From Methylorubrum extorquens (lineage in GTDB: Bacteria; Pseudomonadota; Alphaproteobacteria; Rhizobiales; Beijerinckiaceae), in assembly GCA_019695455.1 (NCBI GenBank), contig JAEUAC010000027.1, positions 1 to 32,869 of the forward strand: DNA of 32,869 bases, read 5' to 3'. The notes under the pieces were generated by a model. It was not told the DNA's origin and did not search any database. It saw only the letters and a program-made list of their open reading frames with translations. A program made the position numbers and the translations under genes. Shown here piece after piece: positions 1 to 7,376 of this stretch (position 1 is the stretch's first letter; every line of letters begins with the position of its first letter).

Positions 1-1014
1 CTCATGGCCGCGCTCGACGAGGCCGGGGCCACGCTGGTCGGCTTCACGGAGATGACCGCCCTCGCCTACGAGCCGTCCGGCGCCAATGCCGACAGGGGCC
101 GCCCGCTCAACCCGGCCGCGCCGGACCGGATCTGCGGCGGCTCGTCGTCCGGCTCCGCGGTCGCGGTCGCGGCGGGCCTCTGCGACGTCGCGATCGGCTC
201 GGACACGGCCGGCTCGCTCCGCATCCCGGCGCAGGCCTGCGGCGTCGCCGCCTGGAAGCCGAGCGCCGGCCTCGTGCCCGACGCGGGCGCCATGCCGCTC
301 GCGCCGAGCCTCGACGCGCTGGGGTTCCTCGCCCGCGACGTCGCGGTGCTCGACCGCGTCGCCGCGCTCTTCGCCCCCGACGCCGCGCCGGCCATCCGAT
401 CGGTCGCGATCGCGGCCGACATCCTGGCCGGGTGCGACCCGGCCGTGGCGTCCGCCTTCGACGCGGCCCGGCGCGCCCTCCCGGCGACCATCGACGTCGC
501 CCTGCAGCCGCTCCTCTCCGAATGCGACGCGCCCTGCCTCGTCATCCTGCAGGCCGAGGCCGCGCGCAGCCATGCGGGCCTCCTCGCCGGCGGCCGGCTC
601 GACCCGGTGCTCGCGCGCCGTCTGGCGAAGGGCGCCGACCTGCCCGCCGCGCAGGTCGAGGCGGCCTATGCGGCCCTGCGCCGCCTGCGGGCGGAGGATC
701 CGACCCGCCTCATGGGCGGGGCGGACGCGATCCTGCTGCCCGTCATGCGGATCCCGACGCCGCGGGTCGAGACCTGCGAGCCCGGCCAGGCCGCCTTCGA
801 TCCGAAGACGCTCTACGCCCTGTCGGCCCTGACCCGCTTCGCGAACCTGCTCGGCTGGCCCGCCGTCGCGATCCCGGTCGGACGCGACGACGGAGGGGCG
901 CCGCTCGCCGTGCAGCTGGTCGGCCGGCCGGGGAGCGACCGCGCCCTCCTGGCGCTCGCCGGCACCATGGCGGCCGCAAACGGATCGGGCCGCGACGGGG
1001 GAGACGCATCGTGA
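1..1014 (+). CDS. Amidase (amidase-signature family), 5' end cut by the window
   Basis: The reading frame is already open at base 1, so the ATG at 4 is probably internal; a full-length amidase would have roughly 90 more residues. The amidase signature is clear. GGSSSGSAVAVAAG carries the cis-Ser, followed by SDTAGSLRIPA with the nucleophile Ser. The Lys of the Ser-cisSer-Lys triad should lie upstream, outside the window. The family hydrolyses carboxamides to acid plus ammonia in the cytoplasm; the substrate cannot be read here. The TGA overlaps the GTG start of the CoA-transferase, so the two are translationally coupled. This is the first visible gene of an eight-gene operon with an importer, which suggests the amide is an imported compound or an intermediate of it. 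The family is certain; the substrate is unknown. Confidence 0.9.
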   Translation, partial: LMAALDEAGATLVGFTEMTALAYEPSGANADRGRPLNPAAPDRICGGSSSGSAVAVAAGLCDVAIGSDTAGSLRIPAQACGVAAWKPSAGLVPDAGAMPLAPSLDALGFLARDVAVLDRVAALFAPDAAPAIRSVAIAADILAGCDPAVASAFDAARRALPATIDVALQPLLSECDAPCLVILQAEAARSHAGLLAGGRLDPVLARRLAKGADLPAAQVEAAYAALRRLRAEDPTRLMGGADAILLPVMRIPTPRVETCEPGQAAFDPKTLYALSALTRFANLLGWPAVAIPVGRDDGGAPLAVQLVGRPGSDRALLALAGTMAAANGSGRDGGDAS

Positions 1015-2201
1015 CGACCGCGCGATCCAGGGCCCTCGAGGGCCTCGTCGTCCTCGACCTGACGCGCGTCCGCGCCGGCCCGACCTGCTGCCGCGTGCTG
1101 GCGGATTTCGGCGCGGACGTCGTCAAGGTGGAGGCCCCGCCGGGGATCGATCCGAACGAGGCCATGTCGGGGCCGCGGCACGGCTACGACATGCAGAACC
1201 TGCATCGGAACAAGCGGTCGCTGACGCTGAACCTGAAGCGCCCGGAGGGCCGGGACGTGTTCCTGGCGCTCGTGCGGACGGCGGACGTCGTCGTCGAGAA
1301 CTACCGCCCGGACGTGAAGGACCGGCTCGGCATCGGCTACGAGGCGCTGCGGGCCGAGAACCCGCGCGTGATCCTGTGCTCCATCTCGGGCTTCGGCCAG
1401 ACCGGCCCGTACCGGGACCGGGCCGGCTTCGACCAGATCGCGCAGGGCATGGGCGGCCTGATGGGCGTCACGGGCGAGCCGGGCCAGGGACCCATGCGGG
1501 CCGGCATCGCCATCGCGGATTCGAGCGCCGGCCTCTACGCGGCGACCGGCATCCTCGTGGCCCTGGCCGAGCGCGAGCGCTCCGGCGAGGGCCAGTGGGT
1601 CCAGACCTCGCTCTTGCAATCCCAGATCGCGCTCTGCGACTTCCAGGCGGCGCTCTATCTCGTCGACGGCAAGGTGCCCGCGCAGGCCGGCAACGACCAC
1701 CCGTACTCGACGCCCATGGGCGTCGTCGCGACGGCCGACGGCTTCATCAACATCGGCGTCGGGGGCGACGGCCAGTGGCAGGCCTTCTGCCGCGCCGTCG
1801 AGCGGCCCGACCTCGCGGCCGACCCGGTCTACGCGACGGGGACGGCCCGCTTCGAGAACCGGCCCAGGCTGCGGCCGATCCTGGCCGCGATCTTCCGCGA
1901 GAAGACCTCGGCCGAATGGCTCGACATCCTCGAGCGGAACCAGGTCCCGGCGGGGCCGATCTACGGCATGGACGAGGTCTTCGCCGATCCCCAGGTCCGG
2001 CATCTCGCCATGGCGGCGCCGGTCCGTCATCCTGTCCGCGGCGAGATCGCCGTGGTGGCCCAGCCCGTGACCCTATCCCGCACGCCCGCGAGCGTCGTCA
2101 GCGCGATCCCGGAACCGGGCGAGCACACGGACGAGATCCTGGCGGCCGCGGGATTCGGGCCGCAGGCGATCGCGCGGCTGCGCCGGGACGGAGTGGTATG
2201 A
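1011..2201 (+). CDS. CaiB/BaiF family (class III) CoA-transferase
   Basis: This is a 396-residue protein with GTG start at 1011, overlapping the amidase stop; the longer ORF from 432 is a shadow of the amidase. The N-terminus (GLVVLDLTRVRAGPTC..LADFGADVVKVE) is the CoA-binding Rossmann-like start of family III transferases. Asp141 in GFDQIAQGMGGLMG sits where the family carries its catalytic aspartate, which forms the mixed anhydride. The C-terminal part (EWLDILERNQVPAGPIY) is typical. Members move CoA between acyl-CoA and a free carboxylate. Placed after an amidase, it would activate the released acid as a CoA thioester. Its stop overlaps the next start (ATGA). Family assignment is firm; the acid is unknown. 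Confidence 0.93.
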   Translation: MTTARSRALEGLVVLDLTRVRAGPTCCRVLADFGADVVKVEAPPGIDPNEAMSGPRHGYDMQNLHRNKRSLTLNLKRPEGRDVFLALVRTADVVVENYRPDVKDRLGIGYEALRAENPRVILCSISGFGQTGPYRDRAGFDQIAQGMGGLMGVTGEPGQGPMRAGIAIADSSAGLYAATGILVALAERERSGEGQWVQTSLLQSQIALCDFQAALYLVDGKVPAQAGNDHPYSTPMGVVATADGFINIGVGGDGQWQAFCRAVERPDLAADPVYATGTARFENRPRLRPILAAIFREKTSAEWLDILERNQVPAGPIYGMDEVFADPQVRHLAMAAPVRHPVRGEIAVVAQPVTLSRTPASVVSAIPEPGEHTDEILAAAGFGPQAIARLRRDGVV

Positions 2202-3004
2202 CGAGCATGCAGGCAACGGCACCCGGGACGGTCCGCTACGAGGCGCGGGACGGCGTCGCGATCCTCACGATCGACAACGAGGCGCGGCGCAACGCCATGT
2301 CGCTCGCGATGTGGCGGAGCCTGCCTTCGCTCGCGGCGCAGGCCGACGCGGATCCCGCCGTGCGGGCCATCGTGCTGCAGGGCGCGGGCGACAAGGCCTT
2401 CTGCGCGGGCGCCGACATCTCCCAGTTCGGCGAGGCGCGATCGAGCGAGGCCGCGGTCGCGGCCTACGACGAGGCGGTGGCGCAGGGCGGCGGCGCGCTG
2501 GTGCGCGCCGCGAAGCCGAGCCTCGCCCTCATCCGGGGCGTCTGCTTCGGCGGCGGGCTCGGGCTCGCCATGGCGTGCGACATCCGGCTGGCCGCCGGCG
2601 GCTCGCGCTTCCGCATCCCGGCCGCCCGCCTCGGGCTCGGCTACGGCTACGAGGGCGTCCGCACGCTCGTCGGCCGCATCGGCTACCCGGCGACGGCCGA
2701 CCTCCTGGTCTCGGCCCGCATCGTCGAATCCGACGAGGCCGAGCGCCTGGGCATCGTGAACCGGGTCTGGCCCGCGGATCGCTTCGAGGCGGAATCCTCC
2801 GCCTATCTGGCGCAGGTCGGACGGAACGCGCCGCTGACGCTGAAGGCCACGAAGGGGGCGCTCGCCGCCCTCGCCCGGCCGGAGGCGGAGCGGGACCTCG
2901 ACGCCGTCGCGGCGCTCGTCGCGGCGTGTTTCGGCAGCCACGACTATCGCGAGGGGCAGGCCGCCTTCCGCGAGAAGAGAGACCCGGTCTTCCGGGGCGA
3001 GTAG
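2198..3004 (+). CDS. Crotonase-fold protein (enoyl-CoA hydratase/isomerase family) lacking both hydratase glutamates
   Basis: This is a 268-residue protein with ATG at 2198, coupled to the CoA-transferase by an ATGA overlap. The crotonase fold is clear: FCAGADISQFGEA, the first oxyanion-hole region, and FGGGLGLAMACDIRLA, the second. Rat mitochondrial enoyl-CoA hydratase uses Glu144 (GGGCE) and Glu164 (PE). The aligned positions here are Gly122 and Ala142 (SRFRIPAARLG), so classical syn-hydration is unlikely. Superfamily relatives without these Glu act as isomerases, decarboxylases, dehalogenases or C-C hydrolases. Given the upstream CoA-transferase, the substrate is most likely the CoA thioester made there. 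'Enoyl-CoA hydratase' should be read as a fold label only. Family membership is certain; the reaction is open. Confidence 0.9.
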   Translation: MTSMQATAPGTVRYEARDGVAILTIDNEARRNAMSLAMWRSLPSLAAQADADPAVRAIVLQGAGDKAFCAGADISQFGEARSSEAAVAAYDEAVAQGGGALVRAAKPSLALIRGVCFGGGLGLAMACDIRLAAGGSRFRIPAARLGLGYGYEGVRTLVGRIGYPATADLLVSARIVESDEAERLGIVNRVWPADRFEAESSAYLAQVGRNAPLTLKATKGALAALARPEAERDLDAVAALVAACFGSHDYREGQAAFREKRDPVFRGE

Positions 3005-3060: not shown

Positions 3061-4053
3061 ATGAAGCGTCGTCACGTTCTGGCAAGTCTCGCGGCCTCGG
3101 GCCTCGCGGCCTCGCTCGCCTTCGCGACGGGTGCCGTCGCGCAGGCGCCGGCGCCCCTGAACCCGCCCGTCACGCTGACGGTCGGGTACCAGAAGGTCGG
3201 GCACCTCGCGCCGATCACGCTGATCGAGGACGAGCTGAAGAAGGGCGGCGTCGACCTCAAGCTGGTCGAGTTCGCCCGCTACGCCGACGCCCGCACGGCG
3301 CTGCTCTCGGGCTCGCTCGACGCGGCCTCGGTCGGCCCGGCGGACCTCGCCATCGCGCTCGCGAACGGGGCGACGGGGATCGTCGGCATCATGGGCGTCG
3401 GCTCCTCGCCGAAATACGTGATCGGCAAGACGGGCACGAAGCTCGACAGCTGGGACGACCTGAAGGGCAAGAAGGTCGGCATCGCGCCGGGCTCGGCCGT
3501 GTGGTTCCAGTTCGCGGCGGCGCTGACGGAGCGCGGCATCCCCTATTCGAGCTTCAACGCCGTCAACATCCAGGGCGCCGGCACCAACTTCAACCAGGCG
3601 CTCCAGCGCGGCGACGTCGACGCGATCGTCACCTGGGAGCCCTTCGAGTCGATCCCGGTCATCCAGGGCTACGGCTTCTTCGCCAAGAACCTCGACTACA
3701 GCCGCTCGCAGGCGGTCGGCGCCGAGCTCGGCATGTTCGTGGCCACCAAGGCGGCCGCGACGGACAAGAAGGAGGCGCTGCAGCGCTTCGTGACGGCCTA
3801 TGTCGGCCGCATGAAGGCGCTGTCCGCCTCGCCCCCGGATTTCGCGGCCGCGATGGCGAAGCTCACGGGCCTCGAGCCGTCGCTCGCCGCCAAGGTCTCG
3901 GAGGTGATCCAGCTCGGGCCCGTCATCACGCCTGAGCAGATCAAGCGCCAGGCCAAGGCCTTCAACGAGCTCGGCGTCATCCAGAAGGACGTCTCGGGCG
4001 AGATCGACAAGTACTGGGCGCCGGAATTCGTCCAGCGCGCCACGGGCGGCTGA
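3061..4053 (+). CDS. ABC transporter substrate-binding protein, SsuA/TauA/NMT1-like
   Basis: This is a 330-residue secreted binding protein. The first ~30 residues form a signal peptide with an N-terminal double arginine (KRRHVLASLAASG) and a likely cut after AVAQA, so Sec or possibly Tat export. The mature part follows the NMT1/SsuA pattern: VGYQKVGHLAPITLIED, LLSGSLDAASVGPADLAIAL, then DDLKGKKVGIAPGSAVWF and DVDAIVTWEP. Relatives bind sulfonates, taurine, nitrate or pyrimidine precursors, and the ligand cannot be told apart here. An SD-like GGAG lies 7 nt before the ATG. It follows the crotonase gene after a 56-base gap and precedes its permease and ATPase. It probably captures the compound degraded by the surrounding enzymes. 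Confidence 0.92.
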   Translation: MKRRHVLASLAASGLAASLAFATGAVAQAPAPLNPPVTLTVGYQKVGHLAPITLIEDELKKGGVDLKLVEFARYADARTALLSGSLDAASVGPADLAIALANGATGIVGIMGVGSSPKYVIGKTGTKLDSWDDLKGKKVGIAPGSAVWFQFAAALTERGIPYSSFNAVNIQGAGTNFNQALQRGDVDAIVTWEPFESIPVIQGYGFFAKNLDYSRSQAVGAELGMFVATKAAATDKKEALQRFVTAYVGRMKALSASPPDFAAAMAKLTGLEPSLAAKVSEVIQLGPVITPEQIKRQAKAFNELGVIQKDVSGEIDKYWAPEFVQRATGG

Positions 4054-4062
4054 GCGCGACCG

Positions 4063-4941
4063 ATGTCCACCGTCGTCCTGTCCGCCGAGAAGAGCCAGCC
4101 CGCCCCGCGCGCGAGTCTCGGGGTGAGCCTCGGGCCCACCCTCGGCCGGGCCGGCCAGCTCGTGGCCGGGCTCGCCCTGCCGGTGGCGCTGGTCGCGATC
4201 TGGCAGCTGGCCTCGACGGACGGCTCGCTCTTCGGCGGCGCGCTGCCGAGCCCGGACCGCGTCTGGCGGGCCTGGCTCGTCTGGGCCTTCGGCAATCCCG
4301 GCATGGGGCTGAACCCCTATAGCGGGACCTGGTGGGACAACGTCGTCTTCTCGTCCATCCGGGTCGCCAAGGGCTTCGGGCTCGCCATCCTGGTCGGCGT
4401 GCCCCTCGGCATCATGATCGGCTGGTCGCGCGCGGTCGCGCTCGCGGTCGATCCGACCATCCAGATCCTGCGGCCGATCCCGATCACGGCCTGGCTGCCG
4501 ATCTCGCTCGCGATCTTCGGCATCCGCGACTTCGGCGCGATCTTCCTGATCCTGCTCGGCGCCTTCTACCCGATCGTCATCAACTCGATGCACGGGGCGC
4601 GCGGCATCGACCGCAACTGGATCCGGGCCGCCATGATGATGGGCGCCTCGCGCACCGCCATCCTGCGCCGCGTGGTGCTGCCGGCCGCCCTCCCGTCCAT
4701 CTTCACGGGGCTCCGCATCGGGCTCGGCATCGGCTGGACGGCCGTGATCGTGTCCGAGATGGTCGCCGTGAAGTCCGGCCTCGGCTACGTCCTGTGGGAC
4801 GCCTACTACGTCGGCCGCATGGAGGTCGTCATCGCCGACATGGTCTCGATCGGCGTGATGGGCTTCCTGTCCGACCGGCTGATCGTCCTTCTCGAGCATT
4901 GGGCGCTGCGCTGGCGCCGGCTCCAATCCTTCTCGGCCTGA
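4063..4941 (+). CDS. ABC transporter permease, SsuC/TauC-like
   Basis: This is a 292-residue inner-membrane protein with several hydrophobic helices, including one at about residue 35 (LVAGLALPVALVAIWQLA). The cytoplasmic EAA-type loop that contacts the ATPase is visible as IRAAMMMGASRTAILRRVVLPAALPS. Length and architecture match the BPD_transp_1 permeases of sulfonate/taurine/nitrate importers, which work as homodimers. The N-terminal ~30 residues before the first helix are long but not exceptional. The gene starts 9 nt after the binding-protein stop and is followed 8 nt later by the ATPase, giving a complete importer of the usual order SBP-permease-ATPase. Confidence 0.93.
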   Translation: MSTVVLSAEKSQPAPRASLGVSLGPTLGRAGQLVAGLALPVALVAIWQLASTDGSLFGGALPSPDRVWRAWLVWAFGNPGMGLNPYSGTWWDNVVFSSIRVAKGFGLAILVGVPLGIMIGWSRAVALAVDPTIQILRPIPITAWLPISLAIFGIRDFGAIFLILLGAFYPIVINSMHGARGIDRNWIRAAMMMGASRTAILRRVVLPAALPSIFTGLRIGLGIGWTAVIVSEMVAVKSGLGYVLWDAYYVGRMEVVIADMVSIGVMGFLSDRLIVLLEHWALRWRRLQSFSA

Positions 4942-4949
4942 GGCATCCG

Positions 4950-5711
4950 ATGGGCGCGATCTCGTTCTCGGCCGTCGACAAGACCTACGGCGGCCGCGCC
5001 GCGCCCGTCCGGGCGCTCGCCGCCGTCGACCTCGAGGTGGGGGACGGCGAGTTCGTGGCGCTCTTGGGCCCCTCCGGCTGCGGCAAGTCCACGCTCCTGA
5101 ACCTCCTCGCCGGGTTCGAGCCGCCGTCCGGCGGGCGCCTCCTCTTCGACGGCGGCCCCGTCGCGAAGCCCGGGCCCGACCGGGCCGTCGTGTTCCAGGA
5201 GGCGGCGCTCCTGCCCTGGCTCACCGTCTGGCAGAACGTGACCTTCGGCCCGCAGGTGCAGGGGCTGTCGCGCGGCGACTACGAGCCGCGCGCGGCCGAG
5301 ATGATCCGCCTCGTCGGGCTCGACGGCTTCCGCGACGCGCTGCCGGCGCAGCTCTCGGGCGGCATGCGCCAGCGCGTGGGCATCGCCCGCGCGCTCGTCA
5401 TGGACCCGAAGGCGCTCCTGATGGACGAGCCCTTCGGGGCGCTCGACGCGCAGACGCGCCTCACGATGCAGCAATTGCTGCTCGACGTCTGGCAGCGCCT
5501 GCGCACCACGGTCCTCTTCGTGACCCACGACATCGACGAGGCGATCCTGCTGGCCGACCGGGTCCTCGTCATGTCGGCGCGGCCGGGCCGGATCACGCGC
5601 GACATCCCCATCACGCTGCGCCGGCCGCGCTCGGTCGACGACCTCACGAACCCGGACTTCATCCGCTTCAAGGCCACCATCATGGCCGACATGCGGGCCA
5701 CCGGGCACTGA
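4950..5711 (+). CDS. ABC transporter ATP-binding protein, SsuB/TauB-like
   Basis: This is a 253-residue nucleotide-binding subunit with ATG at 4950; the ORF from 4332 is a shadow of the permease. Walker A is LLGPSGCGKST, the Q-loop region AVVFQEAALLPW, the ABC signature LSGGMRQRVGIARAL and Walker B LLMDEPFGALD; the switch His is in VTHDIDEAI. The FQEAALLPW and MDEPFGALD forms are characteristic of the nitrate/sulfonate/taurine importer ATPases, in agreement with the two preceding genes. All catalytic motifs are intact. It powers import across the inner membrane for the pathway encoded around it. Confidence 0.95.
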   Translation: MGAISFSAVDKTYGGRAAPVRALAAVDLEVGDGEFVALLGPSGCGKSTLLNLLAGFEPPSGGRLLFDGGPVAKPGPDRAVVFQEAALLPWLTVWQNVTFGPQVQGLSRGDYEPRAAEMIRLVGLDGFRDALPAQLSGGMRQRVGIARALVMDPKALLMDEPFGALDAQTRLTMQQLLLDVWQRLRTTVLFVTHDIDEAILLADRVLVMSARPGRITRDIPITLRRPRSVDDLTNPDFIRFKATIMADMRATGH

Positions 5712-5728: not shown

Positions 5729-6604
5729 TTGGCCAATCCGCGCATCCCCTACCGGCTCTCGTCCGAGCGCCACCGCCTGCCCGCCCTCGGCGGCAAGCGC
5801 ATCCTCGCCCATCTCGTCGTGAACGTGGAGCACTGGCAGTTCGACCAGCCGATGCCGCGCACCATCATCACGCCGCCGCACGGCCGCGAGACCGTGCCGG
5901 ACGTGCCGAACTTCGCCTGGGCGGATTACGGCATGCGGGCCGGCCTGCCCCGCATCCTGCAGCTCTTCCGGGACCGCCACCTGCCCGCCTCGACGAGCTG
6001 CAACGCGGGCGTCGTGGAGGCCTATCCGCAGGCCGCGACCGCCATGCTGGAGGCCGGCTGGGAGTTCATCGGCCACGGCATGCACCAGAGAGCGATCAAC
6101 CACGCCGAGGGCGGCGAGGAGGCCGTGATCGCGGCCGCCCTCGACACGCTGGCGGCCTTCACGGGGAAGCGACCCACGGGCTGGCTCTCGCCGGGCCTGC
6201 GCGAGACGCTGGACACGCCCGAGATCCTGGTGCGGAACGGGATCGACCACGTCTTCGACTGGGTGGTGGACGACCTGCCGTCCTGGATGGAGACCCGCGA
6301 GGGCCCCCTCCTGGCGATGCCCTACAACGTCGAGATCAACGATTCGATCGTCTACGCGGTGGAGAAGCACGCGACCGGCGAGATGCTGCGCCGGCTGGAC
6401 CACACGCTGCGACGGTTCGAGGAGGAGGCCGACGACAACCCGCGGGTGCTCGCCATCGGCCTGCACCCGCACCTGATCGCCGTGCCGCACCGCATCCACG
6501 AACTCGTCGGCATGGTGGACCGGCTCCTCGCGTCCGACGACGTGATCGTGACGACGGGGCCGGCGATCCGGGACTGGTACGCGGCAGCCGAACCGAAAGG
6601 ATGA
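5729..6604 (+). CDS. CE4-fold (polysaccharide-deacetylase family) hydrolase, PuuE/allantoinase-like
   Basis: This 291-residue protein starts with TTG at 5729; GAGGA lies about 9 nt upstream and no closer in-frame ATG fits the conserved N-terminus. The NodB-type core is recognisable. VVNVEHW occupies the first motif, with Glu34-His35 instead of the usual Asp pair. FIGHGMHQ supplies His116 and His119, metal ligands of motif 2. WLSPGLRETLDT and GLHPHLIAVPHR resemble the later motifs of the PuuE branch. PuuE-type enzymes are cofactor-independent allantoinases, so this branch includes cyclic-amide hydrolases as well as sugar deacetylases. In an operon with an amidase and an importer, a C-N hydrolase of a small molecule is more likely than a cell-wall deacetylase. 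The substrate is not known. Confidence 0.85.
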   Translation: MANPRIPYRLSSERHRLPALGGKRILAHLVVNVEHWQFDQPMPRTIITPPHGRETVPDVPNFAWADYGMRAGLPRILQLFRDRHLPASTSCNAGVVEAYPQAATAMLEAGWEFIGHGMHQRAINHAEGGEEAVIAAALDTLAAFTGKRPTGWLSPGLRETLDTPEILVRNGIDHVFDWVVDDLPSWMETREGPLLAMPYNVEINDSIVYAVEKHATGEMLRRLDHTLRRFEEEADDNPRVLAIGLHPHLIAVPHRIHELVGMVDRLLASDDVIVTTGPAIRDWYAAAEPKG

Positions 6605-6608
6605 CGGG

Positions 6609-7376
6609 ATGGACCTCGGATTGAAGGGCAGGCGGGTCGTCGTCACGGGCGGCTCGGCCGGGATCGGGCTCGCCTGCGCCCGGGCCTACGCGCAGGAGGG
6701 CTGCGACGTCGTCCTCGCCTCGCGCGACCGGGCGAAGCTCGACGCGGCGGCGGCCACGCTCGCTCCCCACGGCGTCCGCGTCGACGTCTTCGCGGGCGAC
6801 CTCGGCGTCGCGGCCGACCGGGAACGGCTCGCGGCCGCGCATGGGGAGGCCGACATCCTGGTCAACAACGCGGGCGCGATCCCGGGCGGCGGCCTCCTCG
6901 ATTTCGACATGGGCGCCTGGGAGGCGGCCTGGGCCCTCAAGGTCATGGGCTACATCCACCTGACCCAGCTCTATCTCGGCGCCATGAAGGCGCGCGGCGC
7001 GGGCACGATCGTCAACGTGATCGGGGCCGCCGGCCGCTCGCCCCGCTACGACTACGTCTGCGGCGGCACGGGCAACGCGGCCCTGATGGCCTTCACGGGC
7101 GCGGTCGGCGGCCGCTCCCCCGCCTGGGGCGTGCGGGTCTTCGCCATCAACCCCGCCATGACGCGGACCGACCGGGCCGTGACCCTCTCCAAGGCGCGCG
7201 CCAAGGAGCGCTTCGGCGACGAATCGCGCTGGGAGGAGCTGCTCTCCGGCCTGCCCTTCGGCCGCGCCATCGAGCCGGCCGAGATCGCGAACGCGGCCGT
7301 GTTCCTGTCCTCGCCGGCCTGCGGCTACGTCAGCGGCGCGACGCTCGACGTGGACGGCGGCGGCGCCTTCGCCTGA
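6609..7376 (+). CDS. SDR-fold protein with degenerate catalytic site
   Basis: This is a 255-residue classical-SDR-sized protein, 4 nt after the CE4 hydrolase stop. The cofactor half is intact: TGGSAGIG at 13-20, LVNNAG at 84-89, and the C-terminal VSGATLDVDGGGAFA. The catalytic half is not. Where SDRs have Ser, and Tyr-x-x-x-Lys before AAL, this protein reads VNVIGAAG and GGTGNAALMAF. That places Gly139 for Ser, Gly152 for Tyr and Asn156 for Lys. Dehydrogenation by the standard mechanism is therefore doubtful; Tyr147 or Tyr149 (RYDYVCGG) could stand in. It ends the operon, followed by a 14-bp palindrome. It may be a divergent oxidoreductase, a lyase or isomerase using the SDR fold, or a non-enzymatic subunit. 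Confidence 0.88.
   Translation: MDLGLKGRRVVVTGGSAGIGLACARAYAQEGCDVVLASRDRAKLDAAAATLAPHGVRVDVFAGDLGVAADRERLAAAHGEADILVNNAGAIPGGGLLDFDMGAWEAAWALKVMGYIHLTQLYLGAMKARGAGTIVNVIGAAGRSPRYDYVCGGTGNAALMAFTGAVGGRSPAWGVRVFAINPAMTRTDRAVTLSKARAKERFGDESRWEELLSGLPFGRAIEPAEIANAAVFLSSPACGYVSGATLDVDGGGAFA

Follow-up and report, generated by a model that had tools for sequence, protein, structure and literature searches.

What does a short-chain dehydrogenase/reductase (SDR) do when it has kept its cofactor site but lost the Ser, Tyr and Lys of the catalytic triad? A first-pass annotation of Methylorubrum extorquens DNA drew attention to such a protein, placed its gene at the end of a coupled operon, and suggested that it had been selected for an alternative function. 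The window analysed here is a whole contig (C460) of 32,869 nucleotides, and the features that bear on the question are collected in Table 1.

Table 1. Genes of the operon and functional sites of the SDR in the window
Feature	Position	Strand	Evidence
Amidase-signature amidase, N-terminus cut by contig end	4..1014	+	full-length homologue in Azospirillum
CaiB-type CoA-transferase, nearest succinate-glutarate CoA-transferase	1011..2201	+	NF052585, 343.9 bits, below cut-off of 750
Enoyl-CoA hydratase, PRK06127 subfamily	2198..3004	+	NF004781, 349 bits, over cut-off of 291
SsuA-family substrate-binding protein	3061..4053	+	TIGR01728, 1.7e-30, below cut-off
ABC transporter permease	4063..4941	+	profile match; gene order in relatives
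ABC transporter ATP-binding protein, taurine/nitrate/sulfonate-like	4950..5711	+	profile match; gene order in relatives
PuuE/polysaccharide-deacetylase-like hydrolase, proposed cyclic imide/amide hydrolase	5729..6604	+	TIGR03212; PuuE structures at E ~1e-19; adjacent in 13 genomes
SDR with K-G-G-N active site, PRK06125/NF004779 subfamily	6609..7376	+	255 aa; NF004779 score; AF2 model
TGGSAGIG cofactor-binding loop, residues 13-20	6645..6668	+	alignment of 18 relatives
Arg39, end of beta-2, predicted NADPH-selecting basic residue	6723..6725	+	residue map, alignment
NNAG motif, residues 86-89	6864..6875	+	sequence; alignment with canonical SDR
Lys111 codon, classical tetrad Asn position (BacG Lys113, AerF Lys119)	6939..6941	+	alignment, residue map
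Tyr115 codon, one helix turn past Lys111 (BacG Tyr117, AerF Tyr123)	6951..6953	+	residue map
Flagged segment, residues 138-161, including Gly139/Gly152/Asn156	7020..7090	+	K/N-group counts; pN below whole gene

The SDR gene is the last of eight same-strand genes joined by overlaps or short gaps. It starts 4 nt past the stop codon of the PuuE-like hydrolase gene, and the next gene downstream lies on the opposite strand, which bears out its placement at the end of a coupled operon. The amidase gene is cut at the contig end, so this assembly lacks the start of the operon along with any regulators. All eight genes occur in order in eight relatives (L139, L141, L144, L148, L151, L152, L154 and L155); one more (L147) has the operon minus only a detected hydratase, and in another (L146) the operon is cut by a contig end. 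The same eight genes, flanked by GntR and LysR regulators, are present on plasmid p3 of Azospirillum brasilense. An orthologue of the PuuE-like hydrolase (at least 70% identity) was found in 13 relatives and sits beside the SDR every time. The SDR is not confined to the operon, since about ten of its orthologues lie elsewhere. Their neighbors include no common partner; the exception is an enoyl-CoA hydratase adjoining the SDR in L145. Genes of the 5-oxoprolinase type (LamB/YcsF, CT_C_D, CT_A_B) lie roughly 4-6 kb upstream of non-operon SDR orthologues (L140:2296-4930 and the matching part of L143), an arrangement that is possibly coincidental. A limited literature search found no description of the eight-gene operon.

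The SDR itself has an intact frame, and its AF2 model adopts the SDR fold with a mean pLDDT of 95.4. It has the Rossmann fold, the TGxxxGxG loop and the NNAG motif of classical SDRs; T13, G14, G18 and G20 are invariant in the alignment of 18 relatives, and the DVDGGG end is present in the frame together with TGGSAGIG and NNAG, all as first described. Arg39 is also invariant among the relatives, and the residue map places Arg there in AerF and BacG, two reductases discussed below. From this common Arg39, we infer that the window SDR may prefer NADPH.

The classical Asn-Ser-Tyr-Lys tetrad, with its YxxxK motif, is absent. Residues 138-161 read IGAAGRSPRYDYVCGGTGNAALMA. In an alignment against L002, a canonical SDR encoded by the same genome, Gly139 falls on the catalytic Ser, Gly152 on the Tyr and Asn156 on the Lys. 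This agrees with the register in which the first-pass annotation saw YxxxK replaced by GGTGN and Ser by Gly, which is correct. A fourth change had escaped it: the tetrad Asn is Lys111. All four positions are therefore altered, from N-S-Y-K to K-G-G-N, and Asn and Lys have exchanged places.

These substitutions belong to a whole family. The family is already curated as NCBIfam NF004779 (PRK06125.1), filed only as 'short-chain dehydrogenase/reductase' with no reaction assigned to it, and the window SDR matches it over its full length (349.5 bits against a cut-off of 261, covering residues 1-253 of 255). Relatives above the cut-off have K111, G139 and N156. Compared with the rest of NF004779, the window copy falls in a subgroup often tied to the PuuE-like/amidase/CoA-transferase operon. 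K111, G139 and G152 are the same in all 18 aligned sequences, drawn from relatives at 37-80% identity, and Tyr115 and Asn156 are each kept in at least 90% of them. We also examined 166 non-redundant SDRs, a collection seeded with the window protein, whose proportions are therefore uninformative on abundance: K111 and N156 occur together in 71 and N156 without K111 in none, while the full K-G-G-N set is found in 63 and the full N-S-Y-K set in 60. The 71 proteins of the K/N group all have G139 and N156, and 63 have G152; residue 115 is Tyr in 62 and Phe in 5. Position 139, Gly throughout this group, is Ser in 70 of 71 classical proteins. A contig scan, diluted by the generic peptide DILVNNAG, returned mostly classical SDRs, which were of use for comparison. 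Among 299 genomes of a phylum survey, 14 encode an NF004779 member above cut-off, and a match at E <= 1e-60 turned up in 18; the 14 control genomes yielded neither. A limited literature search turned up no paper on this subfamily.

Other non-classical sets are conserved elsewhere among SDRs. Two of them, both distinct from the K/N group, occur among L039-L043, L047, L049-L051, L053, L055, L056, L079 and L099: an N-S-S-R set, in which Arg stands for the Lys and Ser for the Tyr, and a K-N-T-R set. The 5idx and 5va8 structures look Arg-type. A same-genus relative (L016:1501-2259) has Cys for Asn156; every other K111 protein in the set has Asn or Arg at that position. One locus (L027) carries three successive SDR frames with Lys111/Asn156-type residues in a single 3.8-kb stretch.

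The closest solved sequence relative of the window SDR is 6jh7, identified as AerF of Microcystis, and BacG/YwfH (3u49) comes next, at 9e-49 against the family profile. The residue map places Lys, Tyr, Gly and Asn at matching positions in all three proteins (K111, Y115, G139 and N156 here). AerF (Microcystis aeruginosa; 6jh7/6jha/6jhb), which acts in aeruginosin Choi biosynthesis, is about 34% identical to the window SDR but has Ser at the Tyr position where the window SDR has Gly; its pathway is biosynthetic and its gene neighbors differ. BacG (Bacillus subtilis; 3u49/3u4c/3u4d), the bacilysin conjugate reductase, has the set as Lys113, Tyr117, Gly141 and Asn158, but is only about 25% identical, has Asn at the Tyr position, and acts on a prephenate-derived substrate. 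The structural paper on BacG by Rajavel et al. in 2013 reportedly assigned a catalytic tetrad of Lys113-Tyr117-Ser155-Asn158. All four residues stand at the stated numbers in the BacG sequence, which was confirmed against the PDB, and they align to Lys111-Tyr115-Gly153-Asn156 of the window SDR. Three of the four are kept: the Lys-Tyr-Asn part is shared, and Ser155 is replaced by Gly153, as it is by Gly161 in AerF. Both enzymes carry the substitutions seen here, and both are known as NADPH-dependent reductases of C=C bonds. BacG converts epoxy-H2HPP to epoxy-H4HPP in bacilysin synthesis (PMC9147277), and AerF is an NADPH-dependent C=C reductase according to 2020 work cited in PMC10143770. The AF2 model matches an AerF complex with a TM-score of 0.93 and on YwfH with 0.89, but other SDRs match it as well or better, so fold alone cannot decide the chemistry.

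Which residues could replace the missing acid and base? The first-pass annotation had pointed to Tyr147 and Tyr149, a proposal that did not hold up. Tyr147 varies among close orthologues and was rejected; Tyr149 is kept throughout the orthologous group, yet BacG has Met at this position and AerF has Leu. The replacement catalytic residues are likely Lys111 and Tyr115, in the helix before the motif, together with Asn156.

We consider it probable, though well short of assured, that the window SDR is an active NADPH-dependent conjugate (ene) reductase with a rebuilt catalytic apparatus, perhaps acting before the opening of a cyclic-imide or lactam ring. NADPH would bind the retained Rossmann site, as motifs and fold suggest, and the catalytic Asn-Ser-Tyr-Lys would be functionally exchanged for Lys111-Gly139-Gly152-Asn156 with Tyr115 added. 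By analogy with BacG and AerF, hydride would most likely pass to the beta-carbon of an alpha,beta-unsaturated carbonyl in a 1,4 conjugate, or 'ene', reduction; reduction of the carbonyl itself is disfavored by the absence of the Tyr acid. Lys111 and Tyr115 may stabilize the enolate and supply a proton, unless solvent provides it, and Asn156 may hold the cofactor ribose or a water.

It is unlikely, in our estimation, that the protein instead works as a carbonyl reductase or alcohol dehydrogenase, with Tyr115 and Lys111 taking over the Tyr/Lys acid-base role and no C=C chemistry. The retained SDR fold and cofactor site and the conserved Tyr115 would suit such an enzyme, as would the finding that other SDR subfamilies in our searches have different non-classical sets. 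However, BacG and AerF, the only studied enzymes found with the K/Y/G/N set, both reduce C=C bonds. Moreover, an altered SDR tyrosine has been linked to ene reduction in isopiperitenone reductase (PMC4988501). This plant SDR ene reductase (Mentha) has lost the catalytic Tyr, as the window SDR has, but there only the Tyr is changed, to Glu, and Ser, Lys and Asn are retained.

A lower probability still attaches to a catalytically dead NADPH-binding protein that serves as a redox sensor or regulator of the operon. Four changed tetrad positions beside intact cofactor motifs are what such a protein might display, but the replacement residues are fixed and common to two active enzymes. Additionally, the gene lies among catabolic enzymes, and the Azospirillum operon has its own separate regulators.

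If the window SDR is an ene reductase, what might it reduce? Our guess, drawn from gene neighbors, is an unsaturated cyclic imide or lactam. In Aspergillus nicotinate breakdown, a PuuE-related cyclic imidase acts before an amidase (PMC9304392), and this order, together with a CoA-transferase whose nearest relatives use dicarboxylates, suggests such a substrate. The operon's hydrolase scores 107.5 bits against TIGR03212, far below the 424.6-bit cut-off for PuuE allantoinase. It is the putative counterpart of the PuuE-related imidase found with an amidase in HxnM/HxnN of Aspergillus and in the cyclic imide hydrolase system of Pseudomonas putida (PMC9304392); unlike those systems, the bacterial operon adds a CoA-transferase, an enoyl-CoA hydratase and an importer. 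Speculatively, an unsaturated cyclic imide or lactam would be imported and saturated by the SDR; ring opening by the PuuE-like enzyme and removal of ammonia by the amidase would follow. The CoA-transferase might then activate the resulting dicarboxylic acid, and the enoyl-CoA hydratase might carry the breakdown on. The fungal pathway also suggests another role, that of dehydrogenating a ring hydroxylactam to an imide that feeds the imidase. There, the SDR HxnW, the imidase HxnM and the amidase HxnN work one after another, and their enzyme classes resemble those of the operon, but HxnW keeps the classical Asn119-Ser147-Tyr162-Lys166 (PMC9304392) that the window SDR is without, and we regard this role as very improbable.

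Is the unusual active site maintained by selection? Among 22 close sequences (60-80% identity), there is no variation at residues 111, 115, 139, 149, 152 and 156, and mean column conservation is 0.90 over residues 136-163 and 0.78 over the whole gene. All 26 orthologues at 61-80% identity have open frames. pN is below pS in all 21 pairwise comparisons, and residues 136-163 have a lower pN than the full gene (0.057 and 0.130, respectively, for L009). The 12-residue stretch 146-157 is matched in conservation by 30 of the 242 such windows in the protein, and thus the conservation of the motif is that of other core parts of the protein and is not exceptional. The collected homologues agree with the original view of a segment that is conserved and not decayed. 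The idea of a selected alternative function likewise gains support, because a large family shares the fixed substitutions and purifying selection acts more strongly on the motif region than on the gene overall. Decay of the gene, which the loss of the textbook catalytic residues might have suggested, is rejected as extremely improbable given the 26 open frames and low pN/pS, with a motif more constrained than the gene and an operon kept across genera and in a second order.

Did the K/N proteins arise once? In a tree of 95 SDRs, they group together, including BacG and AerF (SH-aLRT 86). These two are only distantly related and sit on long branches, and a free quick-search tree built without the active-site columns placed them outside the family. 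However, with those columns removed, the tree constraining the K/N proteins together had the higher likelihood and was not rejected (p-AU 0.69). A single origin is favored by these sequence comparisons but is not proven.

In many genomes, the name given to these proteins implies carbonyl or alcohol chemistry. We raise tentatively, as a possibility with less than even prospects, that the Asn/Lys exchange in the tetrad defines the whole PRK06125 family as one large class of ene reductases with an SDR fold, and that the operon encodes a pathway, so far undescribed, in which unsaturated cyclic imides or lactams are reduced and opened. If K-G-G-N does mark ene reduction, a sequence rule would re-assign the entire family and provide flavin-free biocatalysts for C=C reduction. 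It would also hint at what the conserved catabolic operon of eight genes acts on.
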